This document shows, one piece after another, positions 4,027-16,773 of a stretch of 37,515 bases of DNA (its first letter is position 1; each line of letters begins with the position of its first letter). The notes below the pieces were generated by a model, which saw nothing but the letters and a program-made list of their open reading frames with translations, made no database searches and was not told the DNA's origin. A program made the position numbers and the translations under genes. Source of the DNA: Bacteroidota bacterium (GTDB lineage Bacteria > Bacteroidota > Bacteroidia > Chitinophagales > Chitinophagaceae); assembly GCA_021824365.1 (NCBI GenBank), contig JAKAKY010000002.1, positions 1-37,515 of the forward strand. Reading direction: 5' to 3'.

Positions 4027-4042
4027 TGGAAAATTGAGGTAC

Positions 4043-5410
4043 ATGCAGGTTAGTCACCATTTATTAGAAAAATACAATGTTCCTGTTCCCAGGTATACCA
4101 GTTACCCAACTGTTCCATTTTGGAATGAAACCATATCAGTACATGCGTGGGAACAATTAGTAAAAGCTGCTTTTAATAAAGATGTATCAGGATTAAGCTT
4201 ATACATTCATTTGCCTTTTTGCGAATCGTTGTGTACTTATTGTGGTTGCAATAAAAAAATTACTACCAACCATCAGGTTGAGTCTGAATATTTAGCGGCT
4301 GTTTTAAAAGAATGGCAATTGTATCTGCAATTATTGCCGGGCAAACCATTGTTGCGTGAATTACATTTAGGCGGTGGCACACCTACTTTTTTTTCGCCGG
4401 AAAATTTACACTATTTAATCAGTTTTATTTTGGCAACTGTTGAAGTGCATTCCCAACATGAATTTGGTTTTGAAGGCCACCCGAATAATACTACCCTGCA
4501 ACATTTAGAAATCCTACATAACCTGGGTTTTAACCGGGTTAGTTTTGGTATTCAGGACCACAACCCTTTGGTACAAAAAATCATTAACCGCATACAACCT
4601 ATTGAAAATGCAGAACGGGCAGTGAATATGTCGCGCCAAACAGGATATACCTCCGTAAATTTTGATTTGATTTATGGTTTGCCGCGTCAAACCGTTGAAA
4701 GTATGCGCACTACCATTGAGCAAACCATTGCTTTACAACCCGACCGAATTGCATTTTATAGTTATGCCCATGTACCCTGGACCAGTAAAGGCCAGCGTTT
4801 ATTTGATGAACAAGACCTGCCGGATGCCGATACAAAAATGAAATTATACCAATTAGGAAAAGAAATGCTTACGGCTGCCGGGTATATTGATATTGGCATG
4901 GACCATTTTGCATTGCCGAATGATGCCCTGTATGTTGCACAACAGGAAAAAAGGTTACACCGAAACTTTATGGGTTATACAACGCAACAAACCAAATACA
5001 TGATAGGGCTTGGTGTTTCAGCCATTAGCGATATTGGAACAGCATTTACTCAAAACGAAAAAACACTGCACAATTATTATGAAGCAGTTTGCAACAATAC
5101 ATTAGCGGTAACCAAGGGAATTATTTTAACGGAGGAAGACATTCATTTTAAACAATACATATTAGATATCAGCTGCAATGGACAAACCATTTTACAAGAT
5201 GCAGATAAAGCGATGATTACAAAATTTGTAATTCCTGAAATAGAGATATTGAAGTTAGATGGCTTAGTGGAGTTAGAAGAAAATGTACTAACGGTAACGC
5301 CTTTAGGTAAACACTTTATCAGAAATATTTGCAGAGCATTTGATTTGCGATTATTGCGGAATCATATACATGAATCTTCCCACAACCCACAGTTTAGCAA
5401 GGCTATTTAG
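4043..5410 (+). CDS. hemN: Oxygen-independent coproporphyrinogen III oxidase
   Basis: Radical SAM enzyme that decarboxylates coproporphyrinogen III to protoporphyrinogen IX without oxygen, in the cytoplasm. The 4Fe-4S/SAM motif CESLCTYC (CxxxCxxC) is at about residues 60-67, followed by GCNKK. The N-terminal VPRYTSYPT segment is typical of true HemN rather than the HemW chaperone. LHLGGGTPTFF and GFNRVSFGIQD are the usual core motifs. I use the ATG at 4043 (455 aa) rather than an upstream in-frame TTG at 4034; a GAGG lies just before the ATG. The gene is monocistronic, convergent with the chaN-like gene with no base between the two stop codons. It provides the anaerobic or microaerobic alternative to HemF encoded in the nearby operon. 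Confidence 0.95.
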   Translation: MQVSHHLLEKYNVPVPRYTSYPTVPFWNETISVHAWEQLVKAAFNKDVSGLSLYIHLPFCESLCTYCGCNKKITTNHQVESEYLAAVLKEWQLYLQLLPGKPLLRELHLGGGTPTFFSPENLHYLISFILATVEVHSQHEFGFEGHPNNTTLQHLEILHNLGFNRVSFGIQDHNPLVQKIINRIQPIENAERAVNMSRQTGYTSVNFDLIYGLPRQTVESMRTTIEQTIALQPDRIAFYSYAHVPWTSKGQRLFDEQDLPDADTKMKLYQLGKEMLTAAGYIDIGMDHFALPNDALYVAQQEKRLHRNFMGYTTQQTKYMIGLGVSAISDIGTAFTQNEKTLHNYYEAVCNNTLAVTKGIILTEEDIHFKQYILDISCNGQTILQDADKAMITKFVIPEIEILKLDGLVELEENVLTVTPLGKHFIRNICRAFDLRLLRNHIHESSHNPQFSKAI

Positions 5411-6858: not shown

Positions 6859-7908
6859 TTAACTCAACAACATATTCTTCTCACTCATCTTATAATCATT
6901 TACCCATTTACTAATGACAGCTATCCAAAGTGGCTGTGTATTTAAGCAGGGAATGGTGGTATAACTTTCACCACCGGCTTCCATAAAACTTTCTTTACCA
7001 CGTTCCGCAATTTCTTCCAGCGTTTCCAGGCAATCACTCACAAATGCAGGGCAAAGAATCAATAGTTTTTTAATTCCCTGAGCAGGCATTTCTTCCAATC
7101 GCTTATCAGTAAAGGGCAGTAACCAACCCTTACCTAAGCGAGATTGAAAAGAAATACTGAATTTTTCTTTAGGTATTTGCAAGGCCTCTGTTACTAATTT
7201 AGTAGTTTCAAAAACCTGATGCCGATAACAGGTTTGATGTGCTACAGAAGGCACATTACAACAATCTTTTACCTGCAGGCAATGGAATCCCGTTGTATCA
7301 CTTTTGCGAATATGACGTTCGGGAATACCATGATAGCTAAATAAAATATGATCGTATTCTTGTTGCAAATAAGGCTGAATACTATTGGCAAGTGCCTGAA
7401 TATATTCAGGATGATTATAATAAGGTTTAATGGTTTTCAACTTGAATTTGTAGTTCATTTTTTGGTGTACTTCCTTCATATATTCTACTGCAGTTTCATA
7501 GCTGCTCATAGCATAATGCGGATACAAAGGAAACAATAATACTTCTTCCAGGTCAGGATTTTGATCTAATAACGATTGATATGCCGCTTCCGGCGAAGGG
7601 TTACCATAACGCATAGCAACGGCTACAGGCATTTGAATGTGCTGCTGTACTGCTTCTTTTAATTGTTGGGTTAATACAATCAACGGAGAACCGGCATCGG
7701 TCCAAATAGTTTTATAGGCCTCGGCCGATTTAGGCGCCCTGAATGGAACAATAATGCCTTTAATGAGTAACAACCTGAAAAAATAAGGCACATCAATGAC
7801 CCTTTCATCCATTAAAAATTCCTTTAAATACTTTTGCACATCTTTTACCGAAGTGGAATCCGGCGAGCCCAGATTCATTAAAATAATGCCTTTTTTAGTT
7901 GGATGCAT
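6859..7908 (-). CDS. hemH: Ferrochelatase
   Basis: Inserts Fe2+ into protoporphyrin IX to give protoheme. The 349-aa product has the catalytic His193 in FSYHGIPERH and the conserved acidic helix CLETLEEI (Glu295 and following), and begins with the usual KGIILMNLGSPDS. A cysteine cluster follows the His motif: Cys210, Cys216, Cys217 and Cys227, in the pattern C-x5-CC-x9-C. Some bacterial ferrochelatases carry a 2Fe-2S cluster on internal cysteines, so this cluster may bind one, but that is inference. It is the first gene of the hemH-hemJ-chaN unit and is divergent from hemA across a 253-bp regulatory interval. A TACATTTG box is 17 bp upstream of the ATG. Confidence 0.96.
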   Translation of the reverse strand: MHPTKKGIILMNLGSPDSTSVKDVQKYLKEFLMDERVIDVPYFFRLLLIKGIIVPFRAPKSAEAYKTIWTDAGSPLIVLTQQLKEAVQQHIQMPVAVAMRYGNPSPEAAYQSLLDQNPDLEEVLLFPLYPHYAMSSYETAVEYMKEVHQKMNYKFKLKTIKPYYNHPEYIQALANSIQPYLQQEYDHILFSYHGIPERHIRKSDTTGFHCLQVKDCCNVPSVAHQTCYRHQVFETTKLVTEALQIPKEKFSISFQSRLGKGWLLPFTDKRLEEMPAQGIKKLLILCPAFVSDCLETLEEIAERGKESFMEAGGESYTTIPCLNTQPLWIAVISKWVNDYKMSEKNMLLS

Positions 7909-8028: not shown

Positions 8029-8062
8029 GTAAAACGGTAAAACGTTTTCAAATACGGTAAAA
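8029..8062. repeat. Short direct repeats in the hemH-hemA interval
   Basis: GTAAAACG occurs twice in perfect tandem at 8029-8044 and runs into TTTT, forming the palindrome AAAACGTTTT at 8039-8048. The nonamer ACGGTAAAA occurs at 8034-8042 and again at 8054-8062, 20 bp apart. These lie just upstream of the TGAC repeats of the hemA promoter and could be a second regulator site. Function is unknown. Confidence 0.35.
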
Positions 8063-8097
8063 TGACAATTAAATGACAGAGACATGACTTAAGTCAT
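8062..8097. promoter_or_regulatory. Candidate hemA operator: phased ATGAC repeats ending in a palindrome
   Basis: ATGAC starts at 8062, 8073 and 8084, exactly 11 bp apart, so the three copies face the same side of the helix. The third copy forms the left arm of a perfect 14-bp palindrome ATGACTTAAGTCAT (8084-8097). The palindrome centre is 30.5 bp before the TACTTTTG box, matching where class II CRP/FNR-type activators bind. An AraC-type protein, which reads direct repeats on one helix face, is the alternative reader. Confidence 0.5.
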
Positions 8098-8120
8098 ACA
8101 TTTCTGCCATCCAAGCGGAA

Positions 8121-8128
8121 TACTTTTG
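8121..8128 (+). promoter_or_regulatory. -7 promoter element of the hemA operon
   Basis: TACTTTTG is an exact TAnnTTTG match, 33 bases upstream of the hemA ATG. No TTG or TTTG occurs at the usual -33 distance; the operator palindrome lies just upstream of that position, which fits an activator-dependent promoter. Confidence 0.5.
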
Positions 8129-8161: not shown

Positions 8162-9382
8162 ATGATAAACTTATCGAATTTTTTTGCCATTGGTATTAAT
8201 TACAAAAAAACAGATGCTTCTGTAAGAGGTCTATTCGCCATTGGCCCCGACCAATATGCTGCCATTTTACAAAAAGCACACACCCTTTCTATAAAAGAAT
8301 TGGTTGTACTCAGTACCTGTAATCGTACTGAAATTTATGGCATTGCCAACCAGGCCTCCGACCTAATTAATTTACTTTGCAGTGAAACGACGGGCTCGAA
8401 AGAGGTGTTTTTAGAACGTTGCTACTTAAAAAAAGAAAAAGAAGCAGTAACACATATTTTTTCTGTTGGTGCCGGATTAGATTCGCAAATTTTGGGCGAT
8501 TATGAAATTGTTGGGCAAATGAAATTGGCCGTTAAGTTTGCAAAAGATCGTGGTTTTGTAGGTTCATTCTTAGAAAGATTATTCAACACGGTATTACAGT
8601 CTTCCAAAACCATTAAAAACCAAACCGCTTTAAGTGGTGGAACCGTCTCCGTATCTTTTGCCGCCATTCAATACTTAAAAGAGCATCTTCCTTCTATTCC
8701 GCAAAAAAACATGCTATTAATTGGCACGGGTAAGATTGGCAAAAACACCTGTAAAAATTTGATTGATTATTTAGATACCACCAATATTACACTGATTAAC
8801 AGAACCAACGAAAAAGCTGCCGAGCTGGCTGCTGAATTGGGTATTGGCTCAGCAACTTACCAAACCTTACCTGTTTTAGCTGAAAAAGCAGATGTAATTA
8901 TTGTAGCTACAAATGCAGAAGCACCTATTTTATATAAAGAAAACTTTATTCAATCGGGTAAAAAAATTCTGATTGATTTGTCTATTCCCCATAATATTCA
9001 TCCCGACACTGCTCAATTAGCGCATATTTCATTAGTAAACGTAGATGACCTAGCAAAAATTAATGATGCTACTTTACAAAAAAGACAGGCAGAAATTCCG
9101 AAAGTATTAAACATTATTCAGGAATTTGAAACTGAGTTTTTTGAGTGGTTAGACAGCAGAAAATTTGTACCCGTTATTAAAGCCGTAAAAAAGAAATTAG
9201 AAGACATGAACCACTGTGAAATGTTTAATGCTGTTTATATAGCCAACAGCCACAGTACCAATGCAGATGACGCTGTTCAAAAAGCAGTAAAAAACATGGC
9301 AGTTAAATTACGCAACAATTACAAACCGGGTTGTAATTTTATAGAAGCCATCAACGATTTTATCACCATCAGCAGTAACTGA
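8162..9382 (+). CDS. hemA: Glutamyl-tRNA reductase
   Basis: First committed enzyme of the C5 pathway: NADPH-dependent reduction of glutamyl-tRNA to glutamate-1-semialdehyde. The catalytic cysteine is Cys53 in STCNRTEIYG (residues 51-60). The second domain has the Rossmann loop LLIGTGKIGKNT near residue 187, followed by NRTNEKAAELA. The C-terminal dimerisation helix region is present and the length of 406 aa is normal. It leads the operon hemA-hemC-hemD-hemE-hemF-hemB-yciI-hemL, with hemC starting 13 bases after its stop. The upstream region holds the only convincing operator-like structure of the operon, so this is the likely control point for the whole pathway. Confidence 0.96.
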   Translation: MINLSNFFAIGINYKKTDASVRGLFAIGPDQYAAILQKAHTLSIKELVVLSTCNRTEIYGIANQASDLINLLCSETTGSKEVFLERCYLKKEKEAVTHIFSVGAGLDSQILGDYEIVGQMKLAVKFAKDRGFVGSFLERLFNTVLQSSKTIKNQTALSGGTVSVSFAAIQYLKEHLPSIPQKNMLLIGTGKIGKNTCKNLIDYLDTTNITLINRTNEKAAELAAELGIGSATYQTLPVLAEKADVIIVATNAEAPILYKENFIQSGKKILIDLSIPHNIHPDTAQLAHISLVNVDDLAKINDATLQKRQAEIPKVLNIIQEFETEFFEWLDSRKFVPVIKAVKKKLEDMNHCEMFNAVYIANSHSTNADDAVQKAVKNMAVKLRNNYKPGCNFIEAINDFITISSN

Positions 9383-9395
9383 TTTTATAGCAATC

Positions 9396-10316
9396 ATGGG
9401 AATAATTAAAATTGGAACCAGAGAGAGCCAATTAGCCGTTTGGCAGGCAACATTAGTGCAAACGCTATTAAGCAAACAACATATTCAAAGTGAATTAAAG
9501 TATATAAAAAGCGATGGCGATATTGATTTAGTTACTCCACTATATGCCCTTGGTGTACAAGGTGTATTTACCAAAACTTTAGACGCCGCTTTACTAAGCA
9601 ATAAAATTGATATTGCCGTACACTCTATGAAAGATGTGCCTACGCAATTAGCAAAAGGTATTCTTCAGGCGGCTGTTTTGCCGAGAGCATCATACCAGGA
9701 TATATTGGTTTTCAAAAAAAATACTGATTTTTTATCAGACCCGCAATCCAATGCAGTTATTGCTACCAGCAGTATCCGCCGAAAAGCACAATGGCTGCAC
9801 CGTTACCCCAACCATACTATTGAAAATTTGCGTGGTAATGTAAATACCCGTTTACAAAAAGTTGCAGACAATGAATGGCATGGAGCCATATTTGCGGCAG
9901 CAGGTTTAGAAAGAATTGCATTACGGCCTGAACAATCTATACACTTAGATTGGATGCTTCCGGCACCAGCACAAGGTGCTATTGTAATTGTATGCCGGGA
10001 AAAAGATACGGAAACCTATCAAAAAATAAATCAGTTAAACGATTTTGATACCGACCTTTGCACAAAAATTGAACGCGATTTTTTGCAAACATTAATGGGT
10101 GGCTGTTCTACACCCATCAGTGCTTTGGCTACAGTTGAAAGAGATGAAGTTTATTTGAAAGGAAATATTACCAGTCCGGATGGAAAACTTCAATTTTCAA
10201 TAGAAAAGAAGAAGCCACTTGCCCATGCCGCAACGATAGGGCTTGAAGCCGGAGCAGAACTTTTACAAACCGATGCTAAAAAGATTATAGAATCTATTCA
10301 TCATGCAAAACAATAA
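9396..10316 (+). CDS. hemC: Porphobilinogen deaminase (hydroxymethylbilane synthase)
   Basis: Polymerises four porphobilinogen units to hydroxymethylbilane using a covalently bound dipyrromethane primer. Cys237 in LMGGCSTPI is the cofactor attachment residue, and Asp80 in HSMKDVPT is the catalytic acid. The start MGIIKIGTRESQLAVWQ and the ATSSIRRKAQ and LRGNVNTRL motifs are typical. At 306 aa it has the usual length. The downstream hemD start lies inside its last 14 bases, which implies translational coupling. Confidence 0.96.
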   Translation: MGIIKIGTRESQLAVWQATLVQTLLSKQHIQSELKYIKSDGDIDLVTPLYALGVQGVFTKTLDAALLSNKIDIAVHSMKDVPTQLAKGILQAAVLPRASYQDILVFKKNTDFLSDPQSNAVIATSSIRRKAQWLHRYPNHTIENLRGNVNTRLQKVADNEWHGAIFAAAGLERIALRPEQSIHLDWMLPAPAQGAIVIVCREKDTETYQKINQLNDFDTDLCTKIERDFLQTLMGGCSTPISALATVERDEVYLKGNITSPDGKLQFSIEKKKPLAHAATIGLEAGAELLQTDAKKIIESIHHAKQ

Positions 10317-11022
10317 TACTATACCGGTTTTATGTACCCGGCCATTAGACCCCATTATTGTAAATAATACCAAAACAAAAGGTATTAGTATAGATTGTAT
10401 CCCATTTATTGAAACCAGCCCAATTGTAAACGAATCTATTTCACAAACCATTCATGAACTGGCACAAAAAAAAATTACCGCCATTTTTACCAGCATGAAT
10501 GCGGTTGATGCTGTAACCGCACATTTACCACAAATCCCTAAATGGAATATTTATTGTTTAGGTGGTATTACCAAAGAAAAGGTTATTCATTTTTTTGGCG
10601 AAAAATATTTTAAAGGCAGCGCAAAAAGTGCCGGTTTATTAGCTGAAAAAATTATTGAACACCACCCCAATCATGAATTGGTATTTTTTTGTGGAGACCA
10701 ACGTATGGATGAATTGCCGGAAACCTTAGCCGCTAACCAATTCCCAACACAACAGGTAATTGTGTACCACACCACTCAAACCCCTGTAGAGGTATCAAAA
10801 AATTATCAGGGTATTGTTTTTTTTAGCCCAAGTGCTGTACATAGTTTTTTCTCCGTAAATACCATACCGTTAGCCACCGTTTTATTTGCCATTGGTAAAA
10901 CCACAGCAGCCACCATACAAACCTATGTTCAAAACAAAATAATTACCAGTGAATGGCCCGGAAAAGAACAAATGATAGATGTAGTGATGAATTATTTTAA
11001 ACCGATTAATATTAAAATATGA
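10303..11022 (+). CDS. hemD: Uroporphyrinogen-III synthase
   Basis: Closes hydroxymethylbilane to uroporphyrinogen III with inversion of ring D. HemD proteins diverge strongly and this one is recognised by its two-lobed layout ([10 protein letters not shown] in the first lobe, [14 protein letters not shown] in the second), by length (239 aa) and by its place between hemC and hemE. It overlaps hemC by 14 bases and hemE by 4 bases (ATGA). Beyond context, sequence similarity alone would give a weaker call. Confidence 0.88.
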
Positions 11023-12059
11023 GTGAATTAAAAAATGATTTAATTTTAAAAACATTAAAAGGCGAAAAAACGGAACGTACCCCTGTTTGGATGATGCGGC
11101 AGGCCGGCAGGTATTTACCACAATACATGGAACTGAGAAATAAATACGGTTTTTTTGAACGTTGCCAAACACCCGAATTAGCCTGCCAAATTACATTACA
11201 ACCTGTTGATATAATTGGCGTTGATGCAGCTATATTGTTTTCTGATATTTTGGTAGTACCCCAAGCTATGGGTCTTGAAGTGCAATTAATTGAAAGTAAA
11301 GGCCCGGTTTTACCCAATCCTATTCAAACGGCCAACGATTTAACCCGCATTCGTGTACCTGATATACAAGAAACCTTAGGATATGTTTGTGAAGCCATTC
11401 AACTGATAAAAAAAGAACTCAATGGCCGGGTACCCCTAATTGGTTTTGCCGGTGCACCCTGGACGGTTCTTTGCTATATGGTTCAGGGGAAGGGGTCTAA
11501 AACATTTGATGAAGCCAAAGCATTTTGTTACCAACAACCCGAATTGGCACACCAGTTATTACAAATGATTACCGATACCACCATTGCTTATCTGCAAGCT
11601 CAAGTAGCTGCCGGTGCCGATACGGTGCAAATATTTGATAGCTGGGGCGGCTTATTGAGTAAAGAAGATTTTGAAACCATTTCATTACCCTATATTCAAC
11701 AAATTGTTGCAGCCATAAAACCCCATGCCCCGGTAATTGTTTTTGCCAAAGGCGCCTGGTACAGCTTAGCTGAAATGGCGCAAACAGGGGCAGCTGCACT
11801 GGGTATTGACTGGTGTACACCACCCGAATTAGCACGACAATTTGCCGGCAGGAACATTGCCTTACAAGGTAATTTCGATCCTGCAAAACTACTATCGCCC
11901 ATACCGGTTATTAAAAAAGAAGTGAAAGCCATGTTACAGGCTTTTGGAGGCCAACAATATATTGCTAATTTAGGACATGGCATTTTACCCAATGTGCCGG
12001 TTGACCATGCAAAAGTATTTGTTGATACGGTTAAAGAATGGCACCCAACCTTTAATTGA
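11019..12059 (+). CDS. hemE: Uroporphyrinogen decarboxylase
   Basis: Decarboxylates the four acetate side chains of uroporphyrinogen III to give coproporphyrinogen III, without a cofactor. The family signature [15 protein letters not shown] is at residues 20-34 and supplies the substrate-binding arginines. [14 protein letters not shown] carries the conserved Asp, and [16 protein letters not shown] is the second signature. At 346 aa it has the normal length. It overlaps hemD by 4 bases, and hemF starts on the base after its stop codon. Confidence 0.97.
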
Positions 12060-13070
12060 ATGCAAATGGAAACAGATTTTTTACCAAATACTACCACAAA
12101 AACATTTCGAGAAGAATGGATACAATATACTCATACCCTTCAGGATACAATATGCAATGCACTTGAGTTGGCAGATGGCAACGCTGTTTTTATACAAGAT
12201 GAATGGCAACGTAAGCCCGATGGTACCGGTGGCGGTGGAAAAACGAGAGTAATAGCCAATGGAAATATTTTTGAAAAAGGTGGAGTAAATACCTCTGTAG
12301 TATATGGCACCGTTAGTGAACCCATGCGTAAACAATTACAAATGGATGGCGATGAATGGCTTGCCTGCGGTTTAAGCTTAGTGATTCATCCTTATAATCC
12401 ATTTGTACCTACCATACATTGCAATTACAGATATTTTGAATTGTATGCCAATAATGAAGTAATTAACCGATGGTTTGGCGGTGGAACTGACCTTACACCT
12501 TATTACCTGGTTACCGAAGATGCCATTCATTTTCATCAAACATACAAAAACACCTGCGATCAGTTTGATACTACATTCTATCCATTATTTAAAACATCCT
12601 GCGATAATTATTTCGTAAACACACACCGTAACAATGAACGGAGAGGCATTGGCGGCATATTTTATGACCACCAAAAACCAACGCCGGAAAAAGATGAACA
12701 ATTTTGGCTGAATTTAGCAAAAGCTTGTGGTCAGGCATTTTTAGATGCATATTTGCCCATTGTAGAAAAAAGAAAAAACACATCATTTACCGAACAGCAC
12801 AAATACTGGCAGGAAATAAGGCGTGGCCGTTATGTTGAATTTAATTTATTACACGACCGCGGTACCATATTTGGCTTAAAAACCAATGGAAGAACCGAAA
12901 GTATATTAATGAGCCTGCCTCCTACTGTTCGTTTTAACTATAATTACCAACCCGAAGCAGGAACCCCTGAAGCCATTTTATTAGATGCCTGTATGCATCC
13001 AAGAGACTGGCTCAAAGAATATCAACCCATTACCGTTGATGAATGGATGCAAAAAACCAATCAATGTTAA
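12060..13070 (+). CDS. hemF: Oxygen-dependent coproporphyrinogen III oxidase
   Basis: Aerobic oxidative decarboxylation of coproporphyrinogen III to protoporphyrinogen IX. Typical motifs are GGGGKTRVI, WFGGGTDLTPYY, ERRGIGGIFYD, RRGRYVEFNLLHDRGT.FGL and ESILMSLPP. At 336 aa it is a little longer than the roughly 300 aa of E. coli HemF. Two in-frame ATGs are possible, 12060 and 12066; the first directly abuts the hemE stop and suits coupled translation. The organism thus holds both the oxygen-dependent (HemF) and the oxygen-independent (HemN) enzyme for this step, which suggests growth over a range of oxygen tensions. Confidence 0.97.
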   Translation: MQMETDFLPNTTTKTFREEWIQYTHTLQDTICNALELADGNAVFIQDEWQRKPDGTGGGGKTRVIANGNIFEKGGVNTSVVYGTVSEPMRKQLQMDGDEWLACGLSLVIHPYNPFVPTIHCNYRYFELYANNEVINRWFGGGTDLTPYYLVTEDAIHFHQTYKNTCDQFDTTFYPLFKTSCDNYFVNTHRNNERRGIGGIFYDHQKPTPEKDEQFWLNLAKACGQAFLDAYLPIVEKRKNTSFTEQHKYWQEIRRGRYVEFNLLHDRGTIFGLKTNGRTESILMSLPPTVRFNYNYQPEAGTPEAILLDACMHPRDWLKEYQPITVDEWMQKTNQC

Positions 13071-13073
13071 TGA

Positions 13074-14066
<993 letters not shown>

Positions 14067-14440: not shown

Positions 14441-15730
14441 ATGCAGATAGAAAACAGTCGGCGTTTATTTGAACGTGCACAACAAACCATACCCGGTGGT
14501 GTCAACTCTCCGGTAAGGGCTTTTAAAAGTGTGGGAGGTACGCCTTTATTTATCAAAAAAGCAAAAGGCGCCTATCTGTTTGATGAAGACAATCATCAGT
14601 ATATTGATTACATTGCTTCATGGGGGCCCATGATATTAGGACATGCTTATGATCCGGTTATCAAAGCCATACAAGAAAAAGCTGCAGACTCAACTTCGTT
14701 TGGCACACCTACTGCATTAGAAATTGAAATGGCCGAACTGATTACATGTATGGCACCGAATGTTGATTTAATTAGAATGGTGAGCAGCGGTACAGAAGCC
14801 TGCATGAGTGCACTCCGGTTAGCCAGAGGGTATACCGGCAAAAATAAATTCATCAAATTTGAAGGGAATTATCACGGACACGCAGATGCATTTTTAGTGA
14901 AAGCAGGAAGCGGTGTAGCCACTTTCGATATTCAAACTGTAGCGGGTATCCCTGCAGGGGTAAGTGCCGATACCTTAACCTGCGCTTACAACGATTTAAA
15001 TGCCGTAGAAAAATTAGTAGCGGCACATCCCAATGAAATAGCCGCCATTATTGTTGAACCTGTTGCAGGTAATATGGGCTGCATTATTCCTGAAAACGGA
15101 TTCCTGGAAGGCTTACGAAAAATTTGTACCCATAACCATATTATACTCATTTTTGATGAAGTAATGACCGGATTCAGGCTGGCAGCAGGTGGTGCACAAG
15201 AACGGTTAAGCATTGACGCCGACCTGATTACATATGGAAAAGTAATTGGAGCCGGAATGCCGGTAGGTGCATTTGGTGGTAAAAAAGAAATGATGCAACA
15301 TATTGCCCCATTAGGAAATGTATATCAGGCAGGTACTTTAAGCGGCAATCCAATTGCCATGATTGCAGGCTACACTTTATTGAATGAATTGAAGAACAAT
15401 CCTTCCATTTATCAGGAATTAGATGATAAAACCGCCTATTTACATAATGGACTATATCAAGTATTTACAGCGGCTAACATACCATTTACCATAAACCGTT
15501 TGGGCTCTATGATTAGCGTACATTTTAGCAGTGTACCTGTTACCAATTTTGGAACAGCCGCAGCAGCCAATAACAACCTGTTTAAGCAATACTTTCATGC
15601 CATGCTTAAAAGAGGCATTTATTTACCCCCCTCACCATTTGAAAGTTGGTTTTTGAATAATGCGCTCACTTACGCCGATTTAGATGCTACTATTCAGGCC
15701 AGCAAAGAAAGTTTACAGGAATTAGTGTAA
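14441..15730 (+). CDS. hemL: Glutamate-1-semialdehyde 2,1-aminomutase
   Basis: PLP enzyme that converts glutamate-1-semialdehyde to 5-aminolevulinate, the step after HemA. The PLP lysine is Lys267 in [18 protein letters not shown]. Also typical are [17 protein letters not shown] at the N-terminus, [26 protein letters not shown] and [10 protein letters not shown]. Length 429 aa is normal. It is the last gene of the operon and a strong hairpin terminator follows at 15745. HemA and HemL, which share an unstable intermediate, are encoded at opposite ends of the transcript. Confidence 0.97.
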
Positions 15731-15798: not shown

Positions 15799-16722
15799 TT
15801 ACTTTAATAAATCACAAGGTTTTAAACCGGTATGTTTTTTAAAAGCAGCAGAAAAATGCGAAATAGAAGAATAGCCCAACAAAGCTGAAACATCCGTTAC
15901 GCTTAATCCTTTTTCGTATAAAAGGTATTTAGCATGTTCCATTCTTTGCTGCTGATAAAAATCAAAAATGGTGGTGCCAAAAATTTCTTTAAACCCTTTT
16001 TTCAGGTAGCATTCATTCATGGCTACTTTACGACTTAATTCTTTAATCGTAACAGGATTTCCAATATGTTGCAATAAAAGATCACGTGCCTGATAAATTT
16101 GTTCCTTACTGCGTTGATCCGATAAAAACTTACAGGAAAAACCTTCCTCTTTTTCGTCCACCAAACAATCTAAGCTATACAACAACAATTCATGAATTTT
16201 GGCATTCACAAATATATTTTCCAAAGCTCCTATATAACTGTGGTTTAATAAACCATCCAGAATATTTCGCTTCTTATTACAAACGGTAAAAATTTTTGTA
16301 AAGGCATGCGGATGTTTAAAAGCCAAAACCTCATCTTTCCGGTTGTTTAACTTTACATTATGAGTGAACTGATACAAAAAGCCGGCAGTAAAATGAAAAG
16401 TAAATACATCTACTGTTTGAATTTTACCATCACAATTTTCGGTAGGTAATTGTTGACAAAATGAACAGCTTCTTTCTTCACAATAACGATTACCGGTTGT
16501 ACAAAATCTTAATTCCAGATAATTTTTTTCGGGCTTTACCTCATCGTAATGATATACCATCATACCCGTATCTTCAGCTACCCAGGGGTGTTGTGCATAA
16601 TATCTTCTAATATCATATTGAATTGAACCCGGAATATGCTGCGCTTTCTGGTACAATAAATTCATACTTGGCTCTATGCCATTTTTGTGCGCCACCTTCA
16701 ATATATCTAAAATCTGCATCAT
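15799..16722 (-). CDS. AraC-family regulator with cysteine-rich sensor region
   Basis: Transcription regulator of 307 aa. The C-terminal ~100 residues form the double helix-turn-helix AraC domain (TIKELSRKVAMNECYLKKGF, then GLSVTDVSALLGYSSISHF and a final FKKHTGLKP). The N-terminal part is not a recognisable sugar-binding cupin and contains five closely set cysteines, Cys74, Cys81, Cys86, Cys89 and Cys97, in the segment FCTTGNRYCEERSCSFCQQ and beyond. That spacing could hold an iron-sulfur cluster, heme or zinc. It lies convergent with and directly after the heme operon, and its promoter carries TGAC repeats phased like those at hemA, so it is the best local candidate for a heme pathway regulator and possible autoregulator. 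The target is inference. Confidence 0.88.
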   Translation of the reverse strand: MMQILDILKVAHKNGIEPSMNLLYQKAQHIPGSIQYDIRRYYAQHPWVAEDTGMMVYHYDEVKPEKNYLELRFCTTGNRYCEERSCSFCQQLPTENCDGKIQTVDVFTFHFTAGFLYQFTHNVKLNNRKDEVLAFKHPHAFTKIFTVCNKKRNILDGLLNHSYIGALENIFVNAKIHELLLYSLDCLVDEKEEGFSCKFLSDQRSKEQIYQARDLLLQHIGNPVTIKELSRKVAMNECYLKKGFKEIFGTTIFDFYQQQRMEHAKYLLYEKGLSVTDVSALLGYSSISHFSAAFKKHTGLKPCDLLK

Positions 16723-16729
16723 ATTATTG

Positions 16730-16737
16730 CAAAAGTA
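16730..16737 (-). promoter_or_regulatory. -7 promoter element of the araC-type gene
   Basis: Minus strand TACTTTTG, an exact TAnnTTTG match and the same octamer as at hemA, 7 bases before the ATG, so the leader would be very short or absent. Confidence 0.45.
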
Positions 16738-16758
16738 TGTATATACATTGAAAATTCA

Positions 16759-16773
16759 GTCACAAAACTGTCA
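16759..16773 (-). promoter_or_regulatory. TGAC pair with 11-bp spacing before the araC-type gene
   Basis: On the minus strand TGAC lies at 16773-16770 and 16762-16759. Their last bases are 33 and 22 bp before the start of the TACTTTTG box. The hemA repeats end 55, 44 and 33 bp before the identical box, so both promoters share the same 11-bp register. Possible autoregulatory site. Confidence 0.4.

Follow-up and report, generated by a model that had tools for sequence, protein, structure and literature searches.

A phased TGAC direct repeat before hemA as a conserved operator of a putative heme and respiration regulon in Bacteroidota

The control of heme synthesis in Bacteroidota is, to our knowledge, poorly described, and no operator for hemA in this group was found described in open-licence papers. 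A stretch of 37,515 nucleotides from a member of the Chitinophagaceae (the window; its genome is G000 in our set, the family assignment following named records) carries short, regularly spaced repeats before hemA and raises the question which protein reads them and which genes it controls. The heme cluster of the window contains a radical-SAM gene, probably hemN (4034-5410), a ChaN-like gene, a UPF0093 gene (hemJ), the ferrochelatase gene hemH (6859-7908, minus strand, from Pfam), the operon hemA-hemC-hemD-hemE-hemF-hemB (8162-14066, plus strand, from Pfam and ORF coordinates), a class-III aminotransferase gene (14441-15730, plus strand), which is probably hemL, encoding glutamate-1-semialdehyde aminomutase, according to Pfam Aminotran_3 and context, a gene for an AraC-type regulator (15799-16722, minus strand) and gyrB. 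hemH diverges from hemA across the operator region, and the hemA operon represents the controlled genes.

The motif ATGAC occurs on the plus strand at 8062, 8073 and 8084, i.e. in steps of 11 bp (TGAC itself at 8063, 8074 and 8085), and the TGAC copies end 55, 44 and 33 bp upstream of TACTTTTG (8121-8128, plus strand), which was assigned from sequence as the -7 box of a Bacteroidota promoter serving the hemA operon. The first two copies form the core operator ATGACAATTAAATGACAG (8062-8079, plus strand), a conserved pair of 7-bp units that are separated by a 4-bp spacer and thus have a period of 11 bp; the third unit, ATGACTT (8084-8090, plus strand), follows 11 bp past the core, its TGAC starting 36 bp before the -7 box. 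On the minus strand before araC, TGAC is found at 16773-16770 and 16762-16759 within the operator copy TGACAGTTTTGTGAC (16759-16773), starting 36 and 25 bp before an identical -7 box TACTTTTG (16730-16737, minus strand, likewise from sequence) and ending 33 and 22 bp from it. The initial annotation had reported an 11-bp phasing of TGAC at hemA and araC, and the positions, the distances to the boxes and the common register are exactly as it claimed. The window contains TGAC-N7-TGAC at three places, where 0.46 would be expected, and each of them is at the hemA or the araC promoter; at least three such pairs were obtained in none of 100 dinucleotide shuffles of the window, the triple in none of 300 shuffled versions of the region before hemA, and every other TGAC spacing from 5 to 23 bp yielded no or one pair. 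Directly before the araC -7 box lies a palindrome, ATGTATATACAT (16737-16748), a possible second operator, which recurs as roughly ATGTANNTACAT in five relatives (G002, G003, G013, G018, G027).

Within the Chitinophagaceae TGAC-N7-TGAC was present in all 27 hemA upstream regions, with the consensus AAATGACAnnnnAATGACA, compared to a mean of 0.22 and a maximum of 2 in shuffled sequences. Other spacings up to 21 bp gave at most two pairs, and the ten pairs at a spacing of 22 bp are expected where three units exist. All 13 further named loci with a readable hemA upstream region also hold the pair. The distance from the first TGAC of the pair to the TAnnTTTG box is quantised, being 36 (3 cases), 46 (11), 47 (13), 57 (2) or 58 bp (6), and thus steps by about one helical turn. 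Three units were also found in G016, G018, G025 and G031; the three-copy form together with a perfect palindrome, which the initial annotation had not noted, is a feature of the genus, and wide conservation applies to the form with two copies. Before araC, the pair was detected in 29 of 80 named relatives (200 bp upstream, either orientation), with a shuffle mean of 0.275, a shuffle maximum of 3 and at most four pairs at any other spacing. Relatives that have retained the regulator show the spacing as well, at every family hemA promoter and at araC far above expectation. The link between hemA and araC through a common operator is real, though most relatives, about two thirds of the 80, have no copy at araC. 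Many of the named araC promoters devoid of TGAC repeats (L175, L179, L195 and others) share another conserved block, roughly TTTTTTTnnCATATATTGTTAAAAnTCAG.

The exact form ATGACA-N5-ATGACA occurs at two sites in the genome of the window, at hemA and at one other. The latter adjoins a two-gene unit (L101, 2306-2722 and 1717-2274) encoding proteins of 139 and 186 amino acids, unassigned in function and with no Pfam match; similar pairs of genes are located directly upstream of hemA in G287, G240 and G275 (L337-L339). No hemA match was obtained in eight of the 36 family genomes (G013, G014, G015, G020, G022, G028, G030, G035) and only a weak one in G024. The eight genomes, most of them near complete and most of them keeping an AraC-type relative, might belong to heme auxotrophs.

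The repeat extends beyond the family. In other families of the order the pair precedes hemA in L278, L279 and L283 and is present in reversed orientation in L272 and L281. At the level of the class, 35 of 40 hemA upstream regions from about 30 further families contain it, with the consensus TGACAATTCYATGACA, these regions belonging to a distantly related HemA lineage that is about 25-30% identical; here, shuffling gave a mean of 0.44 and a maximum of 3, and at no other spacing between 5 and 21 bp were there more than two pairs. In 29 of the 35 sites TTTG follows the first TGAC at a distance of exactly 40 bp, so that the position relative to the promoter is fixed at this level as it is in the family (36, 46/47 or 57/58 bp to TAnnTTTG). 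Across the spacing scans of 27 and 40 hemA and 80 araC upstream regions, 11 bp alone stands out, consistent with two identical half-sites arranged head to tail. Judged from the sequence data, the TGAC repeats are a real control site and not a product of chance. The class contains two distant HemA lineages (L338-L351 and L352-L402), and the operator accompanies one of them in most families and the other in the Chitinophagaceae; in the closer HemA relatives from other families (L338-L351) no pair was found in the hemA upstream region.

Other carriers of the site were sought using its reading on the opposite strand. TGTCA-N6-TGTCA within 35 bp of TAnnTTTG occurs 14 times in the 36 family genomes (control, 5). 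Four of these sites lie at a TolB-like locus, and seven of the ten others precede genes for heme proteins: multiheme cytochromes c (once in G008, twice in G023), a cytochrome c with an iron-sulfur gene (G007), cytochrome-like proteins (G022, G030) and the cbb3 oxidase gene ccoN (G010). These heme-protein sites are located about 12 bp from the box, in an orientation opposite to that of the hemA site. The cytochrome sites of the family, picked without using the spacer, tend to have an AATT spacer, as do the class-level hemA sites. In 42 class-level genomes, TGACANTTNNRTGACA yielded about 41 sites, compared with 7 for the control, and hemA accounts for about three quarters of the former. Five of the roughly ten remaining sites precede respiratory heme-protein genes, namely alternative complex III operons (G216, G219, G195), a cbb3 ccoNO gene (G215) and a multiheme cytochrome gene (G274), and two further sites that were examined look unrelated (G206 and one in G215). 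A further recurrent target in the family consists of a TolB/PD40-like gene followed by a gene for a membrane protein of roughly 150 amino acids (MYNGLLHLH...) and is found in six genera (L246-L251), four of which have no clear hemA. At some of these loci a TPR gene and a ribulose-phosphate-epimerase-like gene are divergent from it.

The best explanation of these observations, which we regard as reasonably probable on sequence evidence, is that the repeat is the operator of a class-wide heme and respiration regulon and is read by a regulator of the OmpR/PhoB type, with araC among the targets. The unit of 7 bp, the spacer of 4 bp and the TGTCAT core on the other strand favour an OmpR/PhoB-type regulator, and the 11-bp tandem geometry fits such regulators better than AraC/XylS proteins. 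Counted against this explanation is the opposite orientation of the operator at hemA and at the cytochrome genes, and among the target loci viewed no response regulator gene was seen adjoining a target or carrying the operator. What the computation shows is the site itself, together with how it is conserved, where it is placed and which classes of gene it precedes; the family of the binder, for which the OmpR/PhoB type is the candidate, the direction of control and the signal are inferred. A class-common regulator of some other fold, acting through the same direct-repeat operator, is a less likely alternative that we consider doubtful: the site is class-wide, which such a protein would accommodate, but 7-bp repeats that are arranged head to tail every 11 bp and can be extended to three are characteristic of the OmpR/PhoB kind (PMC4832192, PMC4415409). 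That PhoB itself binds, the site being a PHO box on the other strand that ties heme synthesis to phosphate, is very improbable. The core TGTCA-N6-TGTCA does match the PHO boxes of Escherichia coli, yet none of the genes recognised downstream of TGTCA-N6-TGTCA-N-TAnnTTTG sites in the 36 genomes was a pst or pho gene, and heme-protein genes were found instead. The search of sites close to the TAnnTTTG box thus returned none before pst/pho genes, and we dismissed a Pho regulon. Slightly less credible still, and in our view scarcely tenable, is the regulation of hemA by a CRP/FNR-type dimer bound to the palindrome ATGACTTAAGTCAT at 8084-8097, which would render the direct repeats incidental. This 14-bp palindrome is perfect in the window, differs by one central change in G002 and is kept in four members of the genus, but it is absent in all other family members, all of which keep the direct repeats, and the class-level sites consist of direct repeats only. 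A conserved inverted repeat was thus found in one genus only, and the CRP/FNR site was rejected.

The initial annotation had combined two ideas, a direct-repeat operator on one helix face common to hemA and araC, which stands, and the adjacent AraC-type protein as its binder, which is not supported. According to the latter idea the protein would bind the repeats both before hemA and in its own promoter and would control both itself and the heme operon, an arrangement that we judge unlikely. It gains from several observations: many family members have araC at the heme cluster; its own promoter carries the 11-bp pair in the 29 relatives described above; with the exception of G034, the family genomes with hemA keep an AraC protein whose DNA-binding domain is similar; no regulator gene other than araC was seen to have the site, as would be the case for autoregulation; and genomes that contain araC but not hemA have the site before the TolB-like gene. 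However, the site also occurs at hemA in G034, G047 and G052, in which no AraC orthologue was detected. In G034 the best AraC relative is an ordinary paralogue (31% over its C-terminal half), and the AraC matches in G047 and G052 were all weak and fell on short proteins, some 190-200 residues long. A search with an HMM for the AraC DNA-binding domain gave no match in the 210 kb around 13 class-level hemA loci and, conversely, where AraC genes are divergent from hemA in two loci of other families (L340, L343), the hemA promoters lack the site. Moreover, about two thirds of the araC promoters are without it, it also precedes cytochrome, cbb3 and alternative complex III genes, and an AraC/XylS monomer recognises a pair of unlike boxes that are spaced by one helical turn, whereas the boxes here are identical. 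Orthologue search, neighbourhood search and promoter comparison lowered the standing of AraC as sole binder. From these sequence comparisons, the adjacent AraC protein is probably not the reader of the hemA site, and araC is more likely a target of the operator than its binder.

The AraC-type protein, identified by Pfam HTH_18, alignment and a structure model, has a cupin-like N-terminal domain with five cysteines in a loop (C74, C81, C86, C89, C97), four of which are invariant and one nearly so across 34 relatives. The loop is possibly a metal or iron-sulfur sensor; the homologues in G004, G008, G014, G023 and G029 lack it. The model (mean pLDDT 80.5, low confidence for the cysteine loop, 84-96) matches Rns, ToxT, CsvR and AraC-type DNA-binding domains in the PDB. 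The predicted structure thus shows an AraC-type fold for the regulator of the window and is silent on its DNA specificity.

In the proposed mechanism, a winged-helix response regulator of the OmpR/PhoB type would read TGTCAT half-sites one helical turn apart, binding as a tandem dimer or, where three units exist, as a trimer. The bound regulator would contact RNA polymerase along a single side of the helix and would bring heme synthesis into step with the production of respiratory heme proteins, the local AraC-type regulator being one of its targets. We put at somewhat better than even the broader proposal that a class-wide, undescribed regulator of Bacteroidota couples hemA to alternative complex III, cbb3 oxidase and cytochromes c via one direct-repeat operator, retained at hemA in about 30 families although it is carried by two different hemA lineages. 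The distribution of the site predicts that the supply of heme and the demand for it share a single switch, and its presence at nearly every sampled hemA promoter of one HemA lineage as well as at respiratory heme-protein genes makes it a defined bait for the regulator. The direct-repeat operator as such is of a known kind; the hemA operator and its heme and respiration regulon were not found described in open-licence papers, and those on RprY and HaeR of Porphyromonas (PMC3646045, PMC3764172) gave no binding motif for comparison.

Among known systems, AraC/XylS operators such as that of XylS at Pm resemble the hemA site in that direct repeats lie close to the promoter along a single face of the helix, and an AraC-family gene is located beside the heme cluster. 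XylS, however, recognises 15-bp units of two different boxes, TGCA-N6-GGTA (PMC5481539), whereas the boxes here are identical, recur every 11 bp and are also present in genomes in which no AraC orthologue was detected. The PHO box is closer. It is built from direct repeat units of 11 nt with the core CTGTCAT in E. coli (PMC4415409), as in the PhoB site of pstS, TGTCATAAAACTGTCATA (PMC10294691), and shares with the hemA site the 7-bp units, the 4-bp spacer, the TGTCAT core and the potential to extend to three or more units. It differs in that the targets here are heme-synthesis and respiratory heme-protein genes rather than phosphate genes, and in that the hemA site is reversed. PhoP of Mycobacterium likewise requires a strict 4-bp spacer between 7-bp motifs and binds as a tandem dimer that extends to trimers and tetramers (PMC4832192). 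Its motif, TCACAGC, is different and belongs to another organism and regulon. In HrrA of Corynebacterium the output domain differs, being of the NarL/LuxR type. In its logic, the HrrSA system is alike, as one regulator coordinates heme handling and terminal oxidase genes, heme metabolism and terminal oxidases both being controlled in response to heme (PMC7337898).
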